Source of the DNA: Arctopsyche grandis
Lineage: Eukaryota > Arthropoda > Insecta > Trichoptera > Hydropsychidae
Direction of reading: 5' to 3'
Assembly: GCF_051622035.1 (NCBI RefSeq)
Contig: NC_135361.1
Span: 30,544,205-30,608,204, forward strand
Length of the DNA stretch: 64,000 nt
The notes under the pieces are model-generated. The model made no database searches and was not told the DNA's origin. It saw only the letters and a list, made by a program, of their open reading frames with translations. This document shows positions 3,685 through 62,464 of the stretch, piece after piece. A program made the translations under genes and the position numbers. Every line of letters begins with the position of its first letter. Positions within the stretch are counted from its first letter, which is position 1.

Positions 3685-5432
3685 TTAAGTGGAGTAGTAG
3701 CATCCAGGGGAACACAGCTTCCCAAAGCATTCCGCGAACTTTTCGAAAGCTCTAAACGATGCTTTACTCATTATTAGATCCCCATGATGTAGGGGGCCAA
3801 TGAGAGAACCCCTGACGCTGTCCAGCAGAACCGTCCTCTCAGCCTCCATCCCAGGACAGGACCACAGAATATGATCTGCATCCTGCTCTGGAAAAGAACA
3901 CGGACAAAAGGATTCAGATACCAAGCCCATAGATGCGAGCTTGCCGTTAAAGTGGCCATGACCAGTTAAAAATTGACTGGTCCAAAAACTAGGCGACAGC
4001 CAACCACGCTCAAGGCGCGAAGTGACCCTCGGAAAAAACAAATAGGTTTGTCTACCTTTAGAGGAACAATCCCATCTGAGTTGCCAAGCCGAAATAGCAC
4101 AATTTAAAATAACAGACTTCAAACTTTGCAAGAATCGAGGATCATCGCACTGTGACTGATTAGGAGCACGGAAAAGGACGCCTGAGACGGAAGCATCTAA
4201 CCCACCACGAAGTTTTTCTCGAGCAGCTCTTATTTGGACGACCAAGTCAAGTGGCAATGTACCCGCAAGAATCTGTAGTGAGTCAGTAGACGCAGTGCGA
4301 TAAGCCTGGGTAAGAGCGATCAGAGAAAAACGCTGACCACTATTTAATGTACGACGGACCGTCTTTAATTCGACACGATGACCCCAAATGCTAGATGCAT
4401 ACGTCAAAGAGTTCACAAACACAGCATCGTATACCAAGCGTTTAACATGGAAACCCAAACCCCAAGAGCGACCACAAAGGCGACCAATACGACCAAAGGA
4501 AACCTTAGCTTTATCTAATGCTTTTCCAATATGACCATTGAATGTAAGCCCGACATCGAGAACAACACCTAAATACGTGTACTCGTTGACGAATTTGATC
4601 TTACAGTCTCCGAGTTTGATATTAGGGGCTCTAACAAGAGAACCTTTTAATAGTAAGCACTTGGACTTAGAGGGCGAGAAAGAAAGTTTGTTAATTATGG
4701 CCCAATCGTCTAGAAGGTGAAGTGCCGCAGTAGCTCTACATTCCATCTCAACACGGGACTTTGCGTGCGTTAACAACACGATGTCATCAGCATACGCAAC
4801 CAACCTGCAACCCTCCGGCAAATTGATTGTAAAGAGGTCATTGACGAGAATGTTCCAAAGGATAGGTCCCAAAACGGAGCCCTGTGGACATCCAATAGAG
4901 AGATCCCTGAAACCAACTTGTCCTCCGAGTTCGAAAACCAATTTCCTATCCGACAAGTAACTCTGCAGTAAGCATAGTAAATTCGGATGCAGTCCCAGCA
5001 GACGCAACTTGATCAATAGCATGGGCCACCAGGCATTATCAAACGCTCCAGCAACGTCCAACAAAACAGCAACTACATACTTGGATGGAGAGTCCGAAGA
5101 CTCCCTCAAGACACAGCGAATTGCATCAACAGTAGACTTTCCCGATCTAAATCCAAATTGACCACCGGATAAAACAGAGTTATCGTCAAGGAAACTACTG
5201 AGCCGACTCGAAATTAACCTCTCTAGGACCTTCCCAAGAATAGGCAACAAACTGATAGGGCGATAAGCCTTAGGGTCACTAGCCAGTCTATTAGTATTAT
5301 GCTTTTTAATGACAAACAATTTTCCAACCTTCCAGCAACTAGGGAAGGTTCCAAATTTAAAACAATTTCTATAAACATTGAGAAGTTCAAAATTACCCAC
5401 CGACCAAACGAGTATCTCCGAAAGTTTGTTCT
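3685..5432 (-). CDS. Non-LTR retrotransposon reverse transcriptase, 5'-truncated (R1/I-superfamily-like LINE)
   Basis: The minus-strand frame is open for about 580 codons. In order it shows the fingers/palm start (FPSCWKVGKLFVIKK, then YRPISLLPILGKVLERL), GFRSGKSTVDAI, motif A (LDVAGAFDNAWW), motif B (GCPQGSVLGPILWN), motif C YADDIVLL, and a C-terminal cysteine/histidine cluster (CPCSFPEQDADHILWSCPGME). The product would copy element RNA at a nicked target. No endonuclease or gag-like ORF precedes it, and an in-frame stop lies just above 5432, so the copy is 5'-truncated, as LINEs usually are. The palm looks uninterrupted, which suggests a fairly young insertion. No ATG begins the frame (the first common start is GTG at 5400). 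Clade placement is from motif style only; R1, LOA and I are alternatives. Confidence 0.85.
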
Positions 5433-5854
5433 ACCCAATTGAAACGTTTTTCGGGCTGTGGAGTTGTTAATAAAAACAATTTTTTTACAATCCGACTTTG
5501 ACTGACTTCCGACGATTTCAAATTTAAATCTTGTTTTTCCCATAAGGCTAATTTGTTAATTTTCCTCACGCTTTATTTGTTTCACACCGGTTGCAGTTTG
5601 AACACTCAGTATTGCGTCTGTTCTCGAATTGTCATGTCGGTAAAATAGGGATTTAGCGTTCTATAATATTGCATAGTTTTAAGTTGGCAGAATTGGGTTA
5701 CTCATGCATACATACACAAACATTTAATAGTTTGATGTTTCGTTGAATTTTCATGTTCGTTACTATAAAAAATTCGGGTGTGATCAACCCATGACTTTAT
5801 CTATGTATTTGAGGAATATAAGAAGGTTACAAAACAAAATTCGATATTGAACTG
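5433..5854. other. AT-rich gap between the LINE and the 307-bp repeats
   Basis: A short open minus-strand frame around 5430-5543 shows no recognisable domain. From about 5740 rightwards the sequence is the arm shared in reverse orientation with 10590-10730. Confidence 0.4.
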
Positions 5855-7050
5855 ATGACTATGATAGCGATACAAATTGAGCGCAAATGTATGGAAACTT
5901 GCACAAAACAAAAGTTCTACTTCCAGTTGTCTGATTGTGTTCAAATTTTTTTATTATTTAAAATCAGTATAATTATTATATACATTAAATATCAAGAGGA
6001 TAAAAATAATTTAAAAGGTCAAAATAAAATAATGAAATATTGTTTTAAAAAAAAATACTACTTCCGGTTTACAAATTCTGACCAAAACCCTACCAGCTCT
6101 AAGTTAGTACATAAAGGATAGAAATATAAATTTTCAGCTTAATACGTTCAGGGGTGCGGACAGAGTAGTGGGCACAACATTTTTGACCTTTCTACGAGGA
6201 AAAAAATCCCGCTTCCGGTTCATTAAATTAAGTAACTTTTTTTTATTTTTACTTAAAACCACTATTTTTATTATACACAATAAATATCAAGAAGCTTAAA
6301 ATAATTAAAAAGGTCAAAATAAAATAATGAAAAAATAACGAGATATTGTTTTAAAAAAAAATACTACTTCCGGTTTACGAATTCTGACCAAAACCCTACC
6401 AGCTCTAAGTTAGTACATAAAGTATAGAAATATAAATTTTCAGCTTAATACGTTCAGGGGTGTGGACAGAGTAGTGGGCACAACATTTTCGACCTTTCTA
6501 AGAGAAAAAAATCCCACTTCCGGTTTATGAAATATAATAATTTTTTTTTATTTTCATCAAATTGATACAAGAAATATACTTGAATTTTTTTGTGACGAAC
6601 ACACATGTTTAAGGGGTCGAAAAAAATAGTGGAAGAAAAATCGAACAGGAGTAAACTGCTACTTCCGGTTGACGGATGCTAACTAAATTTTTTAATTACT
6701 TGGTATTAAACTAAAACTTCTAGATATGAAATTTCAGTTCAATAAACCAAAAGGTTTCTGAAAAAAACATAAAAAACTTCGATTCTCGAGAGTAAAAGTA
6801 CTGCTTCCGGTTCAGATAGAAATATTTAAAAAATATGAGGTTATAAAAATTATTATTTGTATTATATTTAAAAAAAATTCAGTCCGATTCAGTTAGTGGT
6901 TTGGGAGATAATTGAATTCAAAAACTTAAAAAAAGAGGACACCTATAAGGCGAGGTACCAAAATCTCGAGTTCGAATTTTCGCATGATCACAAAACTTCA
7001 TCTATTGTTACTACGTACATAGATAAAGTAAAAATAGCATTTAATAATCT
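5855..7050 (+). repeat. About 307-bp AT-rich tandem repeat, plus orientation
   Basis: Two tandem units share aattttcagcttaatacg (about 6131 and 6438), ccctaccagctctaagttag and cttccggtt motifs. The same units occur in the opposite orientation at 9121-11640. The flanks are also mirrored: 5790-5930 with about 10570-10710, and 6540-6900 with about 10730-11060. This makes a large imperfect inverted repeat around the first two GC-rich Helitron-like units. Confidence 0.8.
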
Positions 7051-7072: not shown

Positions 7073-8388
7073 TCTAATCTATAATTTGGAAAGAGACTTT
7101 GTATGTATCCTTGGTCGTCGTCGTCGTCCGTAGATCGGTGACGTCATCGAACACGTGATTCGATTTTTTTTTTTTTTTCGATCCATGGGCGCCGATTTGT
7201 TTTTTTCGATTCAATGGATTCACCCCCGCGGGGGCGCAAGGCGAGTAGCTTCATGGGGTCCCGCCAGGGGCGCCACAAGGGGCGCAGCCCCGTGGGGCCC
7301 CAGCCTCATGGGGCGCAGCCCCATGGGGCTCAAAAGGGGGCGCCACAAGGGGCGCAGCCCCGTGGGGCCCAGCCTCATGGGGCTCAAAAGGGGGCGCCCA
7401 GCCTCATGGGGCGCAGCCCCATGGGGCTCAAAAGGGGGCGCCACGAGGGGCGCAGCCCCGTGGGGCCCCGGGGGGGCCCGGGGGGCCCAGCCTCATGGGG
7501 CGCAGCCCCATGGGGCTCAAAAGGGGGCGCCACAAGGGGCGCAGCCCCGTGGGGCCCCGAATCGGGGCCCGGGGGGCCCAGCCTCATGGGGCGCAGCCCC
7601 ATGGGGCTCAAAAGGGGGCGCCACAAGGGGCGCAGCCCCGTGGGGCCCCGAAGGGGGCCCGGGGGGCCCAGCCTCATGGGGCGCAAGCCCTAATAGGCAT
7701 TAACTAAGGGGGGCGAAGCCCTAGACGGCAATTAATCATGGGGGCGCGGAGGGGCGAAGCCCTAAAAGGCAACTGATCATGGGGGCGAAGCCTTAGACGG
7801 CATTTAATCATGGGGGCGCGGAGGGGCGAAGCCCTAAAAGGCATTAACTAAGGGGGGCGAAGCCCTAAACGGCAATTAATCTTGGGGGCGCGGGGGGCGA
7901 AGCCCTAAAAGGCATTAACTAGGGGGGGCGAAGCCCTAGACGGCATTTAATCATGGGGGTGCGGAGGGGCGAAGCCCTAAAAGGCATTAACTAAGGGGGG
8001 CGAAGCCCTAGACGGCTTTGAATCATGGGGGCGCGGAGGGGCGAAGCCCTAAAAGGCAACTGATCATGGGGGCGAAGCCCTAAACGGCAATTGCTCATGG
8101 GGCGTGGAGGGGCGAAGCCCTAGAAGGCAAAGGCTCAGGGGGGTGCCGAGGGCGAAGCCCTAGAAGGCAAAAAAAAAAATTTGATTTTTTTTTTTGATTT
8201 TTTTAAATTTTTTTTTTGATTTTTTTTTTTATTTTTTTTTTGATTTTTTTTTTAATTTTTTTTTTAATTTTTTTTTTAATTTTTTTTTTAAATTTTTAAA
8301 TTTTTTTTTTTTTTTTAATTAAATTAGCTTAGTCATGTTTAAGCGGTTTATATTATAAACACTGAGCGAAGCCGGGTAATACAGCTAG
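7073..8388 (+). mobile_element. Helitron-like element, family A, unit 1
   Basis: The 5' end is TCTAATCTATAATTTGG followed by aaagagactttgtatg, a (GTC)n run and a GC-rich block. Then come about 16 copies of a GGGCGAAGCCC-centred minisatellite (7700-8170) and T-rich DNA. The 3' end reads gagcgaagccgggtaatac and then agCTAG, followed by T. A 5' TC, a 3' CTRR and a nearby hairpin-forming motif are Helitron hallmarks. No Rep/helicase gene is present, so the unit is non-autonomous. The next unit starts at the very next base. The long GC-rich open frames (such as 7155-7703) are repeat translations. Confidence 0.6.
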
Positions 8389-11300
8389 TCTAATCTATAA
8401 TTTGGAAAGAGACTTTGTATGTAAATATCCTTGGTCGTCGTCGTCGTCGTCCGTAGATCGGTGACGTCATCGAACACGTGATTCGATTTTTTTTTTTTCG
8501 ATCCATGGGCGCCGATTTGTTTTTTTCGTTTCAATGGATTCACCCCCGCGGGGGCGCAAGGCGAGTAGTTTCATGGGGCCCCGCCAGGGGCACCACAAGG
8601 GGCGCAGCCCCGTGGGGCCCCAGCCTCATGGGGCGCAGCCCCATGGGGCTCAAAAGGGGGGGCCCGGGGGGCCCAGCCTCATGGGGCGCAGCCCCATGGG
8701 GCTCAAAAGGGGGCGCCACAAGGGGCGCAGCCCCGTGGGGCCCCGAAGGGGGCCCGGGGGGCCCAGCCTCATGGGGCGCAAGCCCTAATAGGCATTAACT
8801 AAGGGGGGCGAAGCCCTAGACGGCAATTAATCATGGGGGCGCGGAGGGGCGAAGCCCTAAAAGGCAACTGATCATGGGGGCGAAGCCTTAGACGGCATTT
8901 AATCATGGGGGCGCGGAGGGGCGAAGCCCTAAAAGGCATTAACTAAGGGGGGCGAAGCCCTAAACGGCAATTAATCTTGGGGGCGCGGGGGGCGAAGCCC
9001 TAAAAGGCATTAACTAGGGGGGGCGAAGCCCTAGACGGCATTTAATCATGGGGGTGCGGAGGGGCGAAGCCCTAAAAGGCATTAACTAAGGGGGGCGAAG
9101 CCCGAAACGGCATTTATTGAAAAGCTGAAAATTTATATTTCTATCCTTTGTGTACTAACTTAGAGCTGGTAGGGTTTTGGTCAGAATTCGTAAACCGGAA
9201 GTAGTATTTTTTTTAAAAACAATATTTCATTATTTTTTCATTATTTTATTTTGACCTTTTAAATTGTTTTAAGCTTCTTGATATTTAATGTGTATAATAA
9301 AAATAGCGATTTTAAGTAAAAATAAAAAAAAAATTACTTAATTTAATGAACCGGAAGTGGGATTTTTTTCCTTGTAGAAAAGTCAAAAATGTTGTGCCCA
9401 CTACTCTGTCCGCACCCCTGAACGTATTAAGCTGAAAATTTATATTTCTATCCTTTGTGTACTAACTTAGAGCTGGTAGGGTTTTGGTCAGAATTCGTAA
9501 ACCGGAAGTAGTATTTTTTTTAAAAACAATATTTCATTATTTTTTCATTATTTTATTTTGACCTTTTAAATTGTTTTAAGCTTCTTGATATTTAATGTGT
9601 ATAATAAAAATAGCGATTTTAAGTAAAAATAAAAAAAAAATTACTTAATTTAATGAACCGGAAGTGGGATTTTTTTCCTCGTAGAAAAGTCAAAAATGTT
9701 GTGCCCACTACTCTGTCCGCACCCCTGAACGTATTAAGCTGAAAATTTATATTTCTATCCTTTGTGTACTAACTTAGAGCTGGTAGGGTTTTGGTCAGAA
9801 TTCATAAACCGGAAGTAGTATTTTTTTTAAAAACAATATTTCATTATTTTTTCATTATTTTATTTTGACCTTTTAAATTGTTTTAAGCTTCTTGATATTT
9901 AATGTGTATAATAAAAATAGTGATTTTAAGTAAAAATAAAAAAAAAATTACTTAATTTAATGAACCGGAAGTGGGATTTTTTTCCTCGTAGAAAAGTCAA
10001 AAATGTTGTGCCCACTACTCTGTCCGCACCCCTGAACGTATTAAGCTGAAAATTTATATTTCTATCCTTTGTGTACTAACTTAGAGCTGGTAGGGTTTTG
10101 GTCAGAATTCGTAAACCGCAAGTAGTATTTTTTTTAAAACAATATTTCATTATTTTTTCATTATTTTATTTTGACCTTTTAAATTGTTTTAAGCTTCTTG
10201 ATATTTAATGTGTATAATAAAAATAGCGATTTTAAGTAAAAATAAAAAAAAATTACTTAATTTAATGAACCGGAAGTGGGATTTTCTTCCTCGTAGAAAG
10301 GTCAAAAATGTTGTGCCCACTACTCTGTCCGCACCCCTGAACGTATTAGGCTGAAAATTTATATTTCTATCCTTTATGTACTAACTTAGAGCTGGTAGGG
10401 TTTTGGTCAGAATTTGTAAACCGGAAGTAGTATTTTTTTTTAAAACAATATTTCATTATTTTATTTTGACCTTTAAAATTATTTTTATTTGCTTGATATT
10501 TAATGAGTATAATACTGATAGTGATTTTTAGTAACAAAAAAAATTTGAACAAAATCTGATAACCGGAAGTAGATCTTTTGTTTTGTTCAAGTTTCCATAC
10601 ATTTGCGCTCAATTTGTATCGCTATCATAGTCATCAGTTCAATATCGAATTTTGTTTTGTAACCTTCTTATATTCATCAAATACATAGATAAAGTCATGG
10701 GTTGGTCACACCCGAATTTTTTTTAAATATAATACAAATAATAATTTTTATAACCTCATATTTTTTAAATATTTCTATCTGAACCGGAAGCAGTACTTTT
10801 ACTCTAGAGAATCGAAGTTTTTTATGTTTTTTTCAGAAACTTTTTGGTTTATTGAACTGAAATTTCATATCTAAAAGTTTAAGTTTAATACCAAGTTAAT
10901 TATAAAATTTAGTTAGCATTCGTCAACCGGAAGTAGCAGTTTACTCTTGTTCGATTTTTCTTCCACTATTTTTTTCAACCCCTTAAACATGTGTGTTCGT
11001 CACAAAAAAATTCAAGTATATTTCTTGAATCAATTTGATGAAAATAAAAAAAAATTATTATATTTTATAAACCGGAAGTGGGATTTTTTTCTCTTAGAAA
11101 GGTCGAAAATGTTGTGCCCACTACTCTGTCCACACCCCTGAACGTATTAAGCTGAAAATTTATATTTCTATCCTTTATGTACTAACTTAGAGCTGGTAGG
11201 GTTTTGGTCAGAATTCGTAAGCCGGAAGTAGTATTTTTTTTTAAAACAATATTTCATTATTTTTTCATTATTTTATTTTGACCTTTTAAATTGTTTTAAG

Positions 11301-12093
11301 CTTCTTGATATTTAATGTGTATAATAAAAATAGCGATTTTAAGTAAAAAAAAAAAAAAAAACACTTAATTTAATGAACCGGAAGTGGGATTTTTTTTCTC
11401 GTAGGAAGGTCAAAAATGTTGTGCCCACTACTCTGTCCACACCCCTGAACGTATTAAGCTGAAAACTTATATTTCCATACTTTATGTTTTAACTTAGAGC
11501 TGGTAGGGTTTTGGTCAGAATTCGTAAACCGGAAGTAGTATTTTTTTTTTAAACAATATTTCAATATTTTATTTTGATGTTTAAAATTATTTTTATTTTC
11601 TTGATATTTAATAAGTATGATACTGATAGTGATAGTGAGGTAGGGGCGAAGCCCTAAAAGGCATTAACTAAGGGGGGCGATGCCCTAGACGGCATTTAAT
11701 CATTGGGGCGCGGAGGGGCGAAGCCCTAAAAGGCAACTGATCATGGGGGCGAAGCCCTAAACGGCAATTGCTCATGGGGGCGTGGAGGGGCGAAGCCCTA
11801 GAAGGCAAAGGCTCAGGGGGTGCCGAGGGCGAAGCCCTAGAAGGCAAAATATTTTTTTTTGATTTTTTTTAAAAAAAATTTTTGGTTTTTTTTGATTTTT
11901 TAAAATTTTTTTTTTTGATTTTTTTTTTGATTTTTTGTTTATTTTTTTTTATTTTTTTATTTATTTTATTTTTTTTTTAAATTTTTTAAATTTTTTAAAT
12001 TTTTTTTTTTTTAATTAAATGTTTACTATTTGCTTAGTCATGTTTAAGCGGTTTATATTATAAACACTGAGCGAAGCCGGGTATTACAGCTAG
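8389..12093 (+). mobile_element. Helitron-like element, family A, unit 2, expanded by 307-bp repeats
   Basis: It starts TCTAATCTATAATTTGG immediately after unit 1 and ends agCTAG at 12093. The GC minisatellite runs to about 9113, breaks off into 307-bp AT-rich units (9121-11640), then resumes at 11641-11850 before the usual T-rich tail. Either the array was inserted into the element or the minisatellite lost its middle during unequal exchange. Confidence 0.55.
9121..11640 (-). repeat. About 307-bp AT-rich tandem array, minus orientation
   Basis: Repeat starts marked by aagctgaaaatttatatttc fall near 9121, 9429, 9736, 10043, 10348, 11149 and 11456. Spacing is 305-308 bp, with one long gap (10348-11149) filled by the unique arm mirrored at 5790-6900. 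Each unit carries gagctggtagggttttggtc and two accggaagt motifs. Neighbouring units differ by few bases to the eye, which suggests recent amplification or gene conversion. Confidence 0.85.
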
Positions 12094-12101
12094 TCTCTTC
12101 T

Positions 12102-13607
12102 TCTAATCTATAATTTGGAAAGAGACTTTGTATGTAAATATCCTTGGTCGTCGTCGTCGTCGTCGTCCGTAGATCGGTGACGTCATCGAACACGTGATTC
12201 GATTTTTTTTTTTTCGATCCATGGGCGCCGATTTGTTTTTTTCGATTCAATGGATTCACCCCCGCGGGGGCGCAAGGCGAGTAGTTTCATGGGGCCCCGC
12301 CAGGGGCGCCACAAGGGGCGCAACCCCGTTGGGCCCCGAAGGGGGCGCAGGGTGGCGCAGTCTCATGGGGCGTAGCCTTATGGGGCGTAGCCTTATGGGG
12401 CGCAGTCTTATGGGGCGCTGCCTTATGGGGCGCCGCCTTATGGGGCGCCGCCTTATGGGGCGCCGCCTTATGGGGCGCCGCCTTATGGGGCGCCGCCTTA
12501 TGGAGCTTAGCCGCATGGAGCCCCGAAGGGGGCGCAAGGGGGCGCAGCCTCATGGGGCGCAGCTCCATGGGGCTCCGAAGGGGGCGCAGCCTCATGGGGC
12601 GAAGCCCCCTTCGGCGAAGCCCTAAACGGCAACTGATCATGGGGGCGAAGCCCTAGATGGCATTTAATCATGGGGGCGCGGAGGGGCGAAGCCCTGATAG
12701 GCATTTACTAAGGGGGGCGAAGCCCTAGACGGCATTTAATCATGGGGGCGCGGAGGGGCGAAGCCCCAAAAGGCATTAGCTAAGGGGGGCGAAGCCCTAA
12801 ACGGCATTTAATAATGGGGGCGCGGAGGGGCGAAGCCCTAAAAGGCAACTGATAATGGGGGCGAAGCCCTAGACGGCAATTAATCATGGGGACGTGGAGG
12901 GGCGAAGCCCTTATCGGCAACTGATCATGGGGGCGAAGCCCTAGATGGCATTTAATCATGGGGGCGCGGAGGGGCGAAGCCCTGATAGGCATTTACTAAG
13001 GGGGGCGAAGCCCTAGACGGCATTTAATCATGGGGGCGCGGAGGGGCGAAGCCCTAATAGGCATTAACTAAGGGGGGCGAAGCCCTAGACGGCATTTAAT
13101 CATGGGGGCGCGGAGGGGCGAAGCCCTTAAAGGCATTAACTAAGGGGGTCGAAGCCCTAAACGGCAATTAATCTTGGGGGCGCGGGGGGCGAAGCCCTAA
13201 AAGGCATTAACTAAGGGGGGGCGAAGCCCTAGACGGCATTTAATCATGGGGGCGCGGAGGGGCGAAGCCCTAAAAGGCAACTGATCATGGGGGCGAAGCC
13301 CTAAACGGCAATTGCTCATGGGGGCGTGGAGGGGCGAAGCCCTAGAAGGCAAAGGCTCAGGGGGGCGCCGAGGGCGAAGCCCTAGAAGGCAAAAAAAAAT
13401 TTTGATTTTTATTTTTTTTGATTTTTTTAATTTTTTTTTTGATTTTTTTTTTTATTTTTTTTTTATTTTTTTTTTTTAATTTTTTTTTTTTGATTTTTTT
13501 TTTAAATTTTTAAATTTTTTTTTTTTTATTAAATGTTTACTATTAGCTTAGTCATGTTTAAGCGGTTTATTTTATAAACACTGAGCGAAGCCGGGTAATA
13601 CAGCTAG
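12102..13607 (+). mobile_element. Helitron-like element, family A, unit 3
   Basis: The 5' end is TCTAATCTATAATTTGG and the 3' end is gagcgaagccgggtaatac then agCTAG|T. The GC block at 12350-12510 has a short tandem motif (ccttatggggcgccg). The minisatellite at 12600-13390 has about 25 GGGCGAAGCCC copies. Layout matches units 1 and 2. Eight bases separate it from unit 2. Confidence 0.6.
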
Positions 13608-14310
13608 TAATCTATAATTTTGAAAGAGACTTTGTATGTATCCTTCGTCGTCGTCGTCGTCGTCATCGTCCGTAGATCGGTGACGTCATCGAACACGTGA
13701 TTCGATTTATTTTTTTTTCGATTCATGGGCGCCGATTTGTTTTTTTCGATTCAATGGATTCACCCCCGCGGGGGCGCAAGGCGAGTAGTTTCATGGGGCC
13801 CCGCCAGGGGCCCCGAAGGGGGCTCGGGGGGGCGCAGCTTTATGGGGCACAGCCTTATCGGCCGCAGCCTTATGGGGCGCAACCTTATGGGGCGCAACCT
13901 TATGGGGCGCAACCTTATGGGGCGCAGTCTTATGGGGCGCAGTCTTATGGGGCGCAGTCTTATGGGGCGCCGCCTTATGGAGCTCAGCCGCATGGGGCCC
14001 CAAAGGGGGCGCAGCCTTATGAGGCGAAGCCCTATACGGCAACTGATCATGGGGGCGAAGCCCTAGACGGCATTAAATCATGAGGGCGCGGAAGGGTGAA
14101 GCCCTAAAAGGCATCAGCTAAGGGGGGGGAAGCCCTAAACGGCAATTGCTCATGGGGGCGTGGAGGGGCGAATCCCTAGAAGGCAAAGGCTCAGGGGGGC
14201 GCCGAGGGCGAAGCCCTAGAAGGCAAAAAAAAAAAAATCGATTTTTTTTTTTTTTTTTTTTTTTATTTATTTATTTTTTTTTTCAGTTTTTCAGTTTCCC
14301 AGTTTTTTTA
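13608..14310 (+). mobile_element. Helitron-like element, family A, unit 4, 3'-truncated
   Basis: It starts taatctataattttgaaagag directly after the CTAG of unit 3. It has the (GTC)n run, a ccttatggggcgc tandem block (13840-13980) and a few minisatellite copies, then a T-run. The usual CGAAGCCGGG...CTAG end is absent; the sequence passes into a family B Helitron end. Confidence 0.5.
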
Positions 14311-28049: not shown

Positions 28050-28360
28050 TGTTGACTGGTCTGCTGCTGTGTGTCGACGCTTGCTGCTCTGGGTCGACTG
28101 GTCTGGTGCTGTGTGTCGACGCTTGCTGTTGTGGGTCGACTGGTCTGGTGCTGTGTGTCGACGCTTGCTGTTGTGGGTCGACTGGTCTGGTGCTGTGTGT
28201 CGACGCTTGCTGTTGTGGGTCGACTGGTCTGGTGCTGTGTGTCGACGCTTGCTGTTGTGGGTCGACTGGTCTGGTGCTGTGTGTCGACGCTTGCTGTTGT
28301 GGGTCGACTGGTCTGGTGCTGTGTGTCGACGCTTGCTGTTGTGGGTCGACTGGCGTTGTT
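28050..28360 (+). repeat. 42-bp minisatellite inside LTR family A
   Basis: About seven near-identical 42-bp units each carry gtcgactggtctggtgctg and gtgtcgacgcttgctgttg. Because 42 is divisible by 3 all frames stay open, giving repetitive peptides (such as a 14-residue VDWSGAVCRRLLLW unit). I do not regard these as genes. The 28845 copy of the family has only one unit-like segment at the same place (29200-29240). Confidence 0.9.
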
Positions 28361-28388
28361 TGGGTTGTACCTCCTTTTATAGTGTTTT

Positions 28389-28715
28389 TGGAATGCTTGG
28401 TGGAAGTGGTTATTGACGCGTACGAGAGGAATTTTGTTTTCGTCGAGGCGTCGAATTTTCTGGAATGCTTGATGGAAGTGGTTATTGACGCGTACGAGAG
28501 GAATTTTGTTTTCGTCGAGGCGTCGAATTTTCTGGAATGCTTGATGGAAGTGGTCGTACGAGCATTTAGTTTATTGATGCGTACGAAAGGAATTTTGTTT
28601 TCGTCGAGGCGTCGAATTTTCTGGAATGCTTGATGGAAGTGGTTATTGACGCGTACGAGAGGAATTTTGTTTTCGTCGAGGTGTCGAATTTTCTGGAATG
28701 CTTGATGGTGTTCCG
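28389..28715 (+). repeat. 72-bp tandem repeat inside LTR family A
   Basis: About four and a half units each contain ggaatgcttgatggaagtgg, gacgcgtacgagaggaattt and cgtcgaggcgtcgaattttc. One unit has a short insertion (cgtacgagcatttagtttat). Confidence 0.85.
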
Positions 28716-28844
28716 CTCGATGTATTTTGTTGTTGCGGAATATTCTCGAAGGTTTCGATGACGATGACGACGACGAGATTCCTACAATATTTTTGCTTTT
28801 TTAGAATACGTAATGAACGAATTCGATAATTTGTTTAAAAAACT

Positions 28845-29601
28845 TGTAGGCGGGGTACTGTGTGTTGACCGTATCCCAGCCTAACGAAACACTGTTGTGC
28901 TTGTTTTTATAACGTTTTATTGTTTGCCTATGGTTGTACAAAGGTATTATATTTGGGCAAAAGTATGTCGTTCAGCGGTCTCGGGATATGGTAGAGTGTC
29001 GCTGGCTCGGCATTCAGCTATGTTCAGAAGGTCTCTGGATGCGGCAGTGTGTTGCTGGCTCGTTGTTCGGCTATGTTCAGAAGGTCTCTGGATGCGGCAG
29101 TGTGTTGCTGGCTCGTCGTTCGGCTATGTTCGGAAGGTCTCTGGATGCGGCAGTGTGTTGCTGGCTCGTTGTTCGGTTATGTTCAGAAGGTCTCTGGTCT
29201 GCTGCTGTGTGTCGACGCTTGCTGCTGTGGGTCGACTGGCGTTGTTTGGGTTGTACCTCCTTTTATAGTGTTTCTGGAATCACCTGACCCATGGTGGTGG
29301 TTGTTGATGCGTAAGCGAGGAATGCGCTTTTGTCGATGGGGTGGACTTTTCTGGAACGATTGGCGCCGTTCCGCTCCATGTAGTTTAATGGCGGCGGCGT
29401 GTTTCGACCGTTTTGTTTCCGCTCGACTGGTAGGGGCGTTCCGCTTGAGTGTGAGGGGTGGAACTGTCTCGAAGGTTTTGGCAATTGATTCCAAGAAGTG
29501 CACGTGTTGTTTACGTGTGTGAGTTCTGCGCGGAATGTGGTTTGTTGTTGTGGAATATTCTCGAATGTTTCGATGACGATGACGATGACGAGATTCCTAC
29601 A
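28845..29601 (-). repeat. Downstream (3') LTR of the complete family A element
   Basis: This 757-bp LTR retains the 28896-29279 segment, which includes four tandem units of about 60 bp (ctggctcg, ttcggctatg, ttcagaaggtctctggatg). On the minus strand it follows the internal region and starts TGTAGGAATCTCGTC. Confidence 0.8.
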
Positions 29602-30499
29602 TGGCTCTCCGGTGAGCGTTAGCGATGTGTGAGATTTTGTGGGAATCTTGATGTGTTGGAGTCTGTTGACTCGATGGCGTCGTTGTTTGTCCGGTTGTGC
29701 TGGAGAAAGTTGTCTCGGCAGCGGGTCTTGCGTGAAGAACGTTGGTTGACGAAGTGCGTTGAGTGCTGGTCTTCGTTGGTTGTGCTGGAGTTAGTTGTCT
29801 CGACAGCGGATCTTTTGATGCGTACCAGTCCAAGTTATTCTTTTCTACCATGTTGCTTATTCTGTCTAGGCTACGTTGATAGTGAAGGTTGGTGGTCTGG
29901 ACGGTGTTGTTGTGCAGGCGTTTTGCTGGTTGTGCTGGAGTTAGTTGTCTCGACAGCGGCTGTGTTGTGTTGGAGCTAGTTGGCTCAGTGGCGATTTGTT
30001 TCGCCGGTTGTGCTGGAGTGGGTTGACTCAACAGCGGGTTGTGTTGGTAGCTGGTCCATATGTACTTTCACACCATGTTACTGTTGCGGTCGTTACAATG
30101 GTAGTGAAGGTTTGTGACGGTCTGGACGGTGCTGTTGTGCAGGCTGCGGCGTCCTGCATGGGCTCATCGAGGTGATGACTCATCGAAGGTGTGATGAGCG
30201 GTGCTGGCGGATCAACAGTAGTGGATCCATTTGGTTGTTGTCTCCGGGTTGCGTCTTGTTGTGGCGAAAGCTGCGGAGTTGTTTGACATGGTCACTAGTT
30301 GTGGGGACATGTAGCGGACTGCGTTTGAAGTCTGCGTTGAGGGCTGCGTTGTAGACTGCGTTGTAGGCTGCGGTTGCGTGAAGTCTGCGGTTGCATGAAG
30401 CTTGCGGTTGCGTGAAGCTTGTGGTTGCTCGAAGCTTGCGGTTGCGTGAAGGCTTCTGGCTGTTGCCTTGTCGTGGCGTTTGTTGGCTGCTTTGTAGGC

Positions 30500-30785
30500 T
30501 GCTATGTAGGCTGCGATGTGGGCTGCTTGTAGGCTGCGATGTGGGCTGCTATGTAGGCTGCGATGTGGGCTGCTATGTAGGCTGCGATGTGGGCTGCTAT
30601 GTAGGCTGCGCTGTGGGCTGCTATGTAGGCTGCGATGTGGGCTGCTATGTAGGCTGCGCTGTGGGCTGCTATGTAGGCTGCGATGTGGGCTGCTATGTAG
30701 GCTGCGCTGTGGGCTGCTATGTAGGCTGCGCTGTGGGCTGCTATGTAGGCTGCGCTGTGGGCTGCTATGTTGACTGCGCTGTTGA
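30500..30785 (+). repeat. 24-bp minisatellite in the LTR-element interior
   Basis: About eleven units of gctgctatgtaggctgcgatgtgg occur, with g(a/c)tgtggg variation. The minus frame reads as repeated serine/histidine/proline/glutamine octapeptides, the plus frames as cysteine/glycine-rich ones. With no start-to-stop context or domains, these are treated as repeat translations. Confidence 0.9.
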
Positions 30786-30869
30786 CTGCTGTCGTGGCGG
30801 CTGTTGGTTGTTGTGGGGGCTGCACTGTGGGCTGCCGTGTTGACTGCTGTGAAGGCTGCGTAGTTCAAA

Positions 30870-36302: not shown

Positions 36303-37151
36303 TTACCGGAGCGGAGACTAATCTATACAAAGTAAGTTTGACCTACTGAATTCGAATATGGCAATGATTTTTCCTGGTTTTCTTCTCGTTTATGAGATAA
36401 AAGCGCTTAAAAAATGCGCAATTTTTATTAGCTTTTGCAGTCTTCAACTCAAAATGTAATATTGCTGTGCCAGAAGTGAGTATTGGAATCAATAGTCAGA
36501 TATTTTCTCTATTAATTGTGATTTATATATCGAATCGTCGTCATAGAAACTTTGTTTTGTTTTCGAAGTTCCCAACCAAAAACACTTACATACATATATG
36601 CATACAAAGTCTCTTTCGAAATTATATATTAGATTAGATGAGCGCCCCCACTAAGAACATTTCATATTGTAATTTAAAATCATTCATTAGCACTATTACT
36701 ATTAATTAGTAATTAATTCGAATTAGTACTTTCAGATGAATGAAAAAATATTGAGTTTGAAAACCAACCCTTGAAAATGTAATGAAATATATATAACTGG
36801 CCCAATAAATGTATGACAACTTGAGGAAATAATGTGTAAAAAAAATATTTTTGCTTATTAAGTCAAAAATAAATAAAAAAAAGTATATTTTTGAATTTAG
36901 AAATTCGTTAAAAAATTAATAATAAGTATTTTAAAGCAATAAAAAATCACAATCAATAGAGATAACATCTGACTATTGATTCCAATACTCAATTTCTAGA
37001 TTTTGAGTTAAAACCTGCAAAAGCTAAAAATTTGCACACATTTTCAAACGCTGATATCTCATAAACGGAAGCAAACTGACAAAAATCATTGTCATATTCG
37101 AATTCAGTCGTTCAAATTGAGTAAAAATTGTAGTCTCTGCTCCGCTATTTG
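36303..37151. mobile_element. Foldback element abutting the UPF3 stop codon
   Basis: Two diverged inverted arms (36303-36530 and about 36945-37151) share agcggagactaatc/gtagtctctgctccgct, gaattcgaatatggcaatg/cattgtcatattcgaattc and gagtattggaatcaatagtc/gactattgattccaatactc. The spacer carries a family A Helitron 5' fragment near 36604-36645. The right arm ends 24 bp from the UPF3 stop, so UPF3 mRNA may include it. Confidence 0.65.
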
Positions 37152-60610: not shown

Positions 60611-62464
60611 TCAGTCCGAGTGCATCTCCAGTTGCTGCTCAATCCATGGCACATAGCGTGGCACAAAAGCGTACACTCCTGGCAAACGAGGGTGTGCACA
60701 TTTTATACCCCAGCTGACAATACCGCCTACGAACCAACGCTCCCTGTCGTCAGGATCTCTACACAGCAACGGACCACCGGAATCGCCCTGAAATTTTATT
60801 CAATTGTGAGGTTTTTTTTACACGGCACGGTTTCTGTTTACACGGCGTGGTTTCTGTTTACACGGCGTGGTTTCTGTTTACACGGCGTGGTTTCCGTTTA
60901 CACGCTGTAGTTTTTTTGTGCATTGTGCAGTTTAAGTATTACCTGACAGGCGTCTTTTCCCCCTTCAGGATATCCGGCGCATATCATGCCCTCTGTGACG
61001 TTGAGGTCCCTATGCTCCAGCCAGGAGTTGCACAGTTCCCTGTTCAGAACTGGCACTTGAACTTCGTTAACGGCTGGTTCGTATTCGGATACTGGAATTG
61101 AAATCGATAACATACATGTATATTTATTTCATAATGTAAATAATTGATTAACTACAGTAGAACGTCGATTATCCGGACTAATTGGGGATGAAGGTAGTCC
61201 GGATAGTGAAAAATCCGGATAATAGAAAAAATCAAAGTTGACAGGGAAAGACCAGTCATTCAGTATGTATAATTTTATTTGTCTACATTTACTTATATAA
61301 TAACTAGTCACCGGAGCCTGAGGGGGCCGTGTATTGTTCAAAGGTTGTAAATGCATTGTTAAAGGTTTGCCGAACAATGGATAGCACTGTGACTATCCTA
61401 CCTCTAATAATAACATTAATTACACCAGTGGTTTTACCCGGCTTCGCTCGGTATTTGTAAAATAAACCGCTCTAACATCTAATAGTAAACACTGATTTGT
61501 TTTTTTATTAAATTTATTTGAATCGAAAAAAAATAATATTTAAGGACAGCCCATCAGAAAGGAATGGTTTTTTTTATATATAAGGAAATCGGAACTGAAA
61601 TTGGAACCGGGAGTCGAAAATGAAATCGGAATTGGAACTGAAACAGGAATCGGGAACCGGAACTGAAAAAGTAATCGAGATCTGGAACTGAAACAGGAAT
61701 CCGGATTCGGTACTGAAAAAGGAATCGGCACCCGGAACGGAAAAAGGAATCGAAATCGAAAACGGAATCGAAATCGATATCGATATCGTTGTCATAGAAT
61801 ATTTAATTTTTTCGATAACGTCACGGATTCTACGAACCAAAACTTACATTACATAAAACTAACATACATATAAAGTCTCTTTCGAAATCATATGTTAAAA
61901 GATTAGATGAAGATCAATATTAAATTATTCTTTATTAAGAAATTCAATTATGGATTTTGGCTTAAAGTTGGTTTAAAAAAAATCTTTAAAAATAAAATCG
62001 CGATCAAATTTTCAAGACACAAACGTCCTTGAGTATTGAATTTTGAAGACAAGTGACTCATTTCTCCTTCTTATTTTATGTTATGTATTTATCATTTGTG
62101 CTCCGTTTTATTTTATGCCATCACGAGTGTAAAAATTCGAAAATAATATCAATTAGTGACATGCAAAGCAGCAAAATCGTTTGTTTTTAACAATCCGGAT
62201 AATCGAGGTCGTTTTATTTGCGAAGGCCCGTCCCCACTCCACGGAAAAGCAACAATTAGCTCACGATCTCAGTGCGCGCGCATATTTTCTATGGAGTGGG
62301 GGTGGGCTTTCGTAAACGGAACGATTAATATTAAACTTACTTTCTTTATCTTCTCTTTTTCCCCAGCCAATCACAGTGCAAAGTGTTCCTTCGGGTAGTT
62401 GTCTTGATGCAGGTGGTAAACATACTGGTACTAATTGCTCGTGGAAAGTTACTTTGGAAGCCAA
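60611..62464 (-). CDS. Trypsin-like serine protease, last three exons (corin-like)
   Basis: Exons 62464-62341, 61091-60943 and 60787-60611 (stop TGA) join in frame to give the C-terminal 149 residues of an S1 peptidase; the rest lies beyond the right edge or was not found. Visible motifs: [18 protein letters not shown], the GWG strand ([13 protein letters not shown]), [20 protein letters not shown] with the catalytic serine and the aspartate six residues before it that sets trypsin-type Arg/Lys specificity, and [20 protein letters not shown]. The His and Asp catalytic residues are not in the window. The wording around GKREDKE and [11 protein letters not shown] recalls insect homologues of corin (atrial natriuretic peptide-converting enzyme), a membrane-bound mosaic protease; that name is from memory. 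The long intron contains pogo-like and Helitron-like insertions. Confidence 0.85.
60821..60910 (+). repeat. 20-bp minisatellite in a short protease intron
   Basis: Four and a half units of cacggcgtggtttctgttta fill more than half of the 155-bp intron between the last two protease exons. The first unit has cacggcacgg and the fourth tttccg. Confidence 0.9.
61425..61907 (-). mobile_element. Compact Helitron-like element, family A, with A|T insertion site
   Basis: The minus strand starts TCTAATCTTTTAACATATG then tttcgaaagagactttatatg, and ends gagcgaagccgggtaaaac then CACTGG. The flanking base is A at the 5' side and T at the 3' side, as expected for Helitrons. The interior has a purine-biased repeat (61575-61790). 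Confidence 0.65.
61575..61790 (+). repeat. Purine-rich degenerate minisatellite
   Basis: Over about 200 bp the plus strand is almost all A and G, with T and C sparse and regular (ggaactgaaa, ggaatcgg, ggaaccgg). No unit is exact. The strong strand bias could favour triplex DNA. Confidence 0.75.
62218..62320. repeat. About 100-bp inverted-repeat element next to a protease splice site
   Basis: tgcgaaggcccgtccccactcc at the left is mirrored by ggagtgggggtgggctttcg at the right. It ends about 20 bp from the exon donor at 62341. Confidence 0.65.

Follow-up and report, generated by a model that had tools for sequence, protein, structure and literature searches.

Head-to-tail arrays of a putative non-autonomous Helitron with GNA-loop minisatellites in Arctopsyche grandis

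How do copies of a transposable element come to stand head to tail, the first base of one directly after the last base of another, and do the hairpin-forming repeats within them take part in the process? The question is raised by positions 7073-14310 of a 64,000-nucleotide stretch of the Arctopsyche grandis genome (the window; C7:30544205-30608204 of a 475.7-Mb assembly of 189 contigs), where four related copies of one element, here called family A, follow each other in the same orientation. On sequence grounds, the element is classified as a high-copy, non-autonomous Helitron of the canonical type, and the locus as a small array of it. Such arrays probably arise by directional rolling-circle or circle-derived tandem formation, followed by recombination between copies; the internal mini-hairpins belong to two minisatellite domains of the element, and arrays can form without them.

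The four copies share the same 5' end, found at 7073, 8389, 12102 and 13608, and three 3' ends of the type CACTGAGCGAAGCCGGGTAWTACAGCTAG are present, with final bases 8388, 12093 and 13607. An earlier reading of this DNA, made from the sequence alone (the sequence-only reading), had placed four units end to end. Four head-to-tail copies are indeed found and unit 2 exactly abuts unit 1, but unit 3 begins 8 bp after unit 2; unit 4 does abut the CTAG of unit 3, as stated there, but its leading TC and its own 3' end are missing. The left block of the units is conserved (TCTAATCTATAATTTGGAAAGAGACTTTGTATGTA, then a variable (TCG)n tract, then about 130 bp), unit 4 having the form with TTTTG, without the leading TC. 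Next come, in this order, a domain of GC-rich 15-bp-type repeats (GGGGCGCAGCCYYAT), the minisatellite of 72-bp period and a stretch rich in poly-T; a conserved right block with GAGCGAAGCCGGGTAWTACAGCTAG closes units 1-3. Unit 2 measures 3705 bp because it holds an AT-rich insert of about 2.5 kb, and it is a mosaic: in the left part, a single stretch of 493 bp shows 97.6% identity to unit 1, the first 8 successive half-unit variants recur in unit 1 in the same order, and the 5'-most 400 bp match unit 1 at 90%, gaps being present in the GC domain. The right part belongs to another subtype (87% in the alignment to unit 1; right block different at 13 of 85 sites). An inverted relative of the 307-bp AT-rich repeat of unit 2 lies at 5767-6880, just upstream of the array, with aligned pieces 87-95% alike.

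The Helitron reading, already proposed from the sequence alone, is borne out by ends and targets. All 31 complete family-A units, which were found by their ends, have the form 5' TCTAATCT...CTAG 3', the right end being GAGCGAAGCCGGGTA..CTAG; 29 of them stand in arrays (two of these are segmental duplicates) and 2 are solo. Relatives of family A end in CTAG or CTGG. Both solo copies, which lie no more than 100 kb from the window (L008 1661-2791 and L018 5935-4410), show the arrangement host A/TC...CTAG/T host, where slashes mark boundaries: insertion occurred between A and T, and neither of the two has a target duplication. The copy in L018 interrupts a repeat between CTATTGTTACTACGTACA and TATGTAGATAAAG. 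Uninserted relatives of this target (L015 9109, L018 4103, and window 7002, 3156 and 52016) vary in a TATG run and a few bases, the comparison being with relatives and not with an exact empty allele. The target repeat constitutes a separate repeat family, with TTACTACGTACATAGATAAAGT and the variable TATG run. At the arrays, the base before the first visible unit is A in four of six cases (L032, L035, L037 and the window), C in L031 and T in L036. At the other border, T follows the final CTAG of a run in 7 of 7 cases, a segmental duplicate among them.

Central tandem repeats (15-bp and 72-bp) between conserved left and right blocks are a trait of the HINE/DINE-1 type, which does not by itself define a family. 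Helentron/HINE elements insert between T and T, whereas the two solo copies sit between A and T. Relatives with common ends and other interiors were found at window 61425-61907, L017 5317-5519 and L009 4043-4122, as well as in L002 and L010; as the first of them shows, similar ends carry unrelated central repeats. The 80-bp element in L009 contains little beyond a left end joined to a right end, is preceded by T and not by A, and is perhaps a minimal Helitron. Five repeat-derived open reading frames of the array gave no Pfam match at E 0.001, and a scan of viral contigs for the family-A 3' end was likewise negative.

Exact family-A 5' ends number 973 in the whole genome. The exact junction AGCTAGTCTAATCTATAATTT (AGCTAG/TCTAATCTATAATTT) occurs 167 times, the reversed control 0 times; the 100 junctions listed lie on seven contigs. 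No exact head-to-head junction (AAATTATAGATTAGATCTAATCTATAATTT) was found in the whole genome, the query being a 30-bp palindrome, of a kind that can be lost, against 21 bp for the head-to-tail query. The first 100 family-A 5' ends listed all lie on C1; neighbouring ends no more than 5 kb apart share a strand in 29 cases and have opposite strands in 1. By the same 5-kb rule, 54 of the 100 stand alone and 46 form 17 clusters, each on one strand and with 2 to 5 ends. One of the clusters, C1:27060073-27060193, is composed of three exact 5' ends spaced 46 bp, where left ends alone are seemingly in tandem. In the adjoining 200 kb, of which 10 kb are N, 4 of the 9 detected 5' ends are tandem, none of the four belonging to family A: one follows TTAG instead of CTAG, and another aligns only from 8 bases past CTAG. 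Both family-A copies in this region are solo, and 3 of the 7 5' ends within the window are tandem. An assembly artefact, which the sequence-only reading had named as a possible source of the array, is disfavoured as a general cause: 167 identical junctions across the genome argue against a local error, and the junctions read have differing unit lengths and flanks.

Head-to-tail junctions without a gap are also made by sister elements, whose ends are TCTAATATATAATTTCG and ACTAG. At C2:4381406-4384971, part of which is L039, 17 consecutive sister junctions with a spacing of 208-226 bp make up a satellite-like array of mini-Helitrons. In the 701 bp of it that were read, two consecutive 226-bp units are identical, each with one GCGAAGC and no GGGCGAAGCCC; this repetition of a mini-unit suggests a route from Helitron to satellite. 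A minisatellite probe found no match in the tandem sister copies L002 and L010. Junctions can be sorted by the ends on their two sides, as follows. Beside the 167 of type GCTAG/TCTAATC there are 31 of type GCTAG/TCTAATA, of which the next variable base assigns 22 to the sister type, the other 9 being intermediate (GG). ACTAG junctions number 111, and the first 100 listed consist of 90 with the sister 5' end, 6 intermediate (TCTAATA with GG) and 4 with TCTAATC. Mixed-family junctions are thus 26 of 283 when intermediates are dropped, against 132 expected under independence, 26 of 267 against 118 when the C2 array is counted once, and 35 of 298 against 142 by the C/A base alone. These figures are approximate: the two patterns are unequal in length (21 and 34 places), junctions within a cluster depend on each other, and the base that separates GCTAG from ACTAG is only a proxy for family.

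Tandem Repeats Finder assigns the minisatellite a 72-bp period, composed of 31- and 40/41-bp half-units, in agreement with the dimers described from the sequence alone. Counting variants, the four units contain 60 GCGAAGCC-type anchors, 3 of them terminal, which is close to the estimate by eye; the exact 11-mer GGGCGAAGCCC, supposed to be at the centre of every half-unit, is present in 48 of the 57 internal anchors. The plus strand of 7073-14310 carries 55 GCGAAGC (3 terminal) and 48 GGGCGAAGCCC (12, 13, 21 and 2 in units 1-4), and the reverse complement GCTTCGC occurs 0 times in the region, where 200 first-order Markov resamples yield means of 0.45, 0.01 and 0.31, respectively. The 31 complete units together hold 640 GCGAAGC, from 5 to 52 per unit (median 20), with 0 on the reverse strand. 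A single orientation is expected for any tandem repeat. In the same units, GC-NNN-GC loops are mostly GAA (640), then GCA (329) and CCA (126), the last not being a GNA loop; since GAA and GCA are the commonest, GNA loops are found in both minisatellite domains. In the available text of PMC4686876, unusually stable DNA mini-hairpins are described as arising from GNA or GNNA loops with two or more closing G-C pairs, the melting temperature of GCGAAGC being 78 C; this documents the stability assumed in the sequence-only reading.

Over 327 half-units from 18 units, the GCGAAGCC core is conserved at 99-100% per position, partly by construction, since this core and five of its variants served to delimit the half-units. 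Outside the core, nine of the first 31 half-unit positions drop to 50-77%, and others exceed 97%. The predicted DNA fold is no better than that of shuffled sequences for the 72-bp unit (z 0.52) or for the 3' end (z -0.09), with an energy model that may not credit GNA loops. The terminal motif GAGCGAAGCCGGG is sited as a Helitron 3' hairpin; its predicted fold, a 2-bp stem of -0.5 kcal/mol, is also no better than shuffles. A selected structural role of the internal hairpins is therefore at most possible. A rather doubtful proposal is that the minisatellites are retained for the structure of the transferred top strand, which would fold into successive GNA-loop mini-hairpins. If true, two repeat domains (GC-GAA-GC and GC-GCA-GC) would give the same exceptional fold, on that strand only, and such a row of loops might set the pace of rolling-circle synthesis, shield single-stranded DNA or promote re-initiation.

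When half-unit variants are mapped as letters, some haplotypes recur in different arrays: one in L032 and L035 (C1) and L034 (C3), another in L031 and L032 (both C1), while L031, L032 and L033 (all C1) share a third that shows point variants. Similarity between adjacent units averages 0.49 over 17 adjacent pairs, against 0.33 after shuffling, and 0 of 5000 shuffles reach the observed value; the test included 29 of the 31 units, two L036 duplicates having been dropped. At an earlier cut, the longest shared run of half-units averaged 5.8 within arrays and 4.4 between them, and neighbours in L034 have a run of 18 half-units in common. Right ends differ on average by 3.3% within arrays (29 pairs) and 3.7% between (406), and many ends are the same in different arrays. 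L036 shows a block duplication, in which a pair of mini-units of about 500 bp and the same 3' flank appear twice, some 6.7 kb apart, around a 5505-bp unit.

Since the junctions are directional, base-exact and mostly family-matched, they point to the element's own rolling-circle chemistry, by which the right terminal sequence (RTS) and the left terminal sequence (LTS) of one element are joined. A Rep/helicase from an autonomous Helitron would nick the top strand at the 5' end; displacement or joining might then continue beyond CTAG into a next round, giving a product with CTAG/TC, or else a circular intermediate with an RTS-LTS junction could form and be integrated, with the same CTAG/TC. After the first dimer, exchange through the minisatellites of near-identical copies would lengthen arrays and mix lineages, by unequal crossing over, by gene conversion, or by circles recombining into resident copies. 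For the bat element Helraiser, precise plus-strand RTS-LTS junctions and circles are reported, together with a 3' hairpin that acts as a terminator and can be bypassed (available text of PMC5876387 and PMC4778049). Several observations weigh against this account. Many neighbours belong to different minisatellite lineages, so that concatemers from one donor fail to account for most of the arrays that were read, and the 26 mixed-family junctions need an intermolecular event. The best map match lies strictly within the unit's own array for only 2 of 27 array units, in a test made blunt by short maps (e.g. L036) that match many others. Ends cannot order events, left ends differing on average by 1.0% within arrays (27 pairs, partly from overlapping loci) and 3.1% between (438). 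Two of the six array 5' flanks are not A, and no autonomous partner, circle or transposition was observed, no search for a partner having been completed. The mixture of lineages and the mixed junctions therefore call for an additional intermolecular step, in which either circles or arrays recombine with resident copies or the LTS directs an insertion.

Insertion directed by the LTS is the strongest competitor, to which we assign a lesser but appreciable probability. The transposase would recognise a resident left end and nick it, using its A/TC boundary as a directional target, and place new copies directly upstream of old ones. The resident 5' boundary is itself an A/T site, and a single insertion would give A-TC..CTAG-TC..CTAG-T without trace; mixed lineages within arrays and the 26 mixed junctions would follow, and so might the directionality, if the top-strand LTS alone were nicked. 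Mixed junctions are, however, about five times rarer than under random pairing, and identical neighbours such as those of the 226-bp array are better fitted by local rolling-circle synthesis or duplication; recognition specific to each family could rescue the model. Insertion without such guidance, at A/T sites that happen to fall on the 5' boundary of older copies, would also use a valid target dinucleotide, but it should give both orientations equally, against the 167 head-to-tail and 0 head-to-head exact junctions, and so many random hits on one dinucleotide are implausible; this alternative is scarcely credible. A further alternative is that older repeats were multiplied solely by unequal crossing over or segmental duplication, in favour of which stand the duplicated block of L036 with its pair of mini-units and the mosaic unit 2 of the window. 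As the only process it is improbable: it is unable to create the first base-exact CTAG/TC junction, hardly explains 167 junctions, those listed being spread over seven contigs, and the different lineages within an array need more than local duplication.

The sequence-only reading had proposed the hairpins as a possible explanation of the tandem state, with internal copies of the terminal hairpin causing false termination or read-through. The internal GCGAAGCC does match the terminal octamer, and the hairpin of Helraiser is a terminator; but the inferred amplification of the terminal motif is disfavoured, the match being a single 8-mer whose score is not significant, since 254 of 2000 dinucleotide shuffles reach it. 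The sister copies that were read lack the internal array, and sister elements make such junctions all the same; hairpins are therefore unnecessary for the tandem state. The two solo copies read have 15 and 16 GCGAAGC, within the range of 5-52 of the array units, and 11 of 29 array units have no more than these, with no sign that hairpins predict tandem state. False termination would moreover be expected to leave 3'-truncated copies rather than a precise CTAG/TC. A causal role of the hairpins is accordingly held to be very unlikely, and rolling-circle or circle-derived tandem formation with later exchange remains the preferred account.

Features of the window are collected in Table 1. Elsewhere in it, a cluster of GC-rich tandem repeats (42, 72, 53 and 24 bp) with open frames on both strands occupies 28054-30835, and a 581-aa open frame with a reverse transcriptase domain (RVT_1, E 4.9e-35) is found at 3685-5430 on the minus strand; it looks like a non-long-terminal-repeat retrotransposon. 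An Rfam scan at gathering thresholds gave no match.

Table 1. Coordinates of the array, its parts and related elements, in positions of the window.
Feature	Position	Strand
Unit 1, complete family-A non-autonomous Helitron by its ends (TC...CTAG), 14 GCGAAGC, 1316 bp	7073..8388	+
Unit 1, GC-rich domain of 15-bp-type repeats (GGGGC-GCA-GCCCC)	7254..7690	+
Unit 1, 72-bp minisatellite, 31 + 40/41-bp half-units centred on GGGC-GAA-GCCC	7678..8171	+
Unit 1, right terminal sequence with GAGCGAAGCCGGG and CTAG	8342..8388	+
Precise head-to-tail junction of units 1 and 2, CTAG/TCTAAT	8385..8394	+
Unit 2, exactly abutting unit 1, 3705 bp	8389..12093	+
AT-rich insert in the minisatellite of unit 2, 307-bp tandem repeats, boundaries approximate	9109..11644	.
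8-bp spacer TCTCTTCT between CTAG of unit 2 and TC of unit 3	12094..12101	+
Unit 3, complete, 23 GCGAAGC, 1506 bp	12102..13607	+
Unit 4, TAATCT start right after CTAG, without leading TC and 3' end, right limit approximate	13608..14310	+
5' end of a sister-type element (TCTAATATATAATTTCG)	36601..36633	-
Short relative with 3' end CCGAGCGAAGCCGGGTAAAACCACTGG and an unrelated 25-bp GAATCGG-type minisatellite, 5' limit approximate	61425..61907	-

To our knowledge, the formation of head-to-tail junctions by Helitrons in vivo has been deduced largely from one reconstructed bat element. At least 167 exact family-A junctions and 111 of the ACTAG type, mostly sister type, with minisatellites that tag lineages, represent a natural data set, which could separate concatemer, circle-recombination and LTS-directed models.

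Comparison with known systems, made on the text available for each source, places family A among the canonical Helitrons (Helraiser/Helibat; PMC4778049, PMC5876387), with which it shares the 5' TC, the 3' CTAG and insertion between A and T without duplication; the hairpin-like motif lies 12 nt before the 3' end here and 11 nt in Helraiser. It departs from them in that no protein was found in the units, the 3' motif is weak in silico and the internal minisatellites are long. Tandem Helitron arrays of plants and bats, cited in PMC5876387, are alike in head-to-tail junctions and arrays. Those of family A are dispersed, mix minisatellite lineages and have a minority of two-family junctions, which may set them apart. 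The HINE/DINE-1 Helentrons (PMC7492417, PMC9957191) are also non-autonomous and of the rolling-circle kind, with central tandem repeats flanked by two conserved blocks, and these repeats can become satellites; family A has instead canonical Helitron ends and an A/T target, and its repeats are GC-rich GNA-loop hairpin units. The d(GCGNAGC) mini-hairpins (PMC4686876) have the same GC-GAA-GC and GC-GCA-GC cores, in oligonucleotides there and in a genomic array read as sequence here. A narrow literature search returned no paper combining 'helitron' and 'mini-hairpin'. Tandem Helitrons and central tandem repeats in the Helitron class are thus already known; what is unusual here is the number of natural junctions, together with the GNA-loop repeats.

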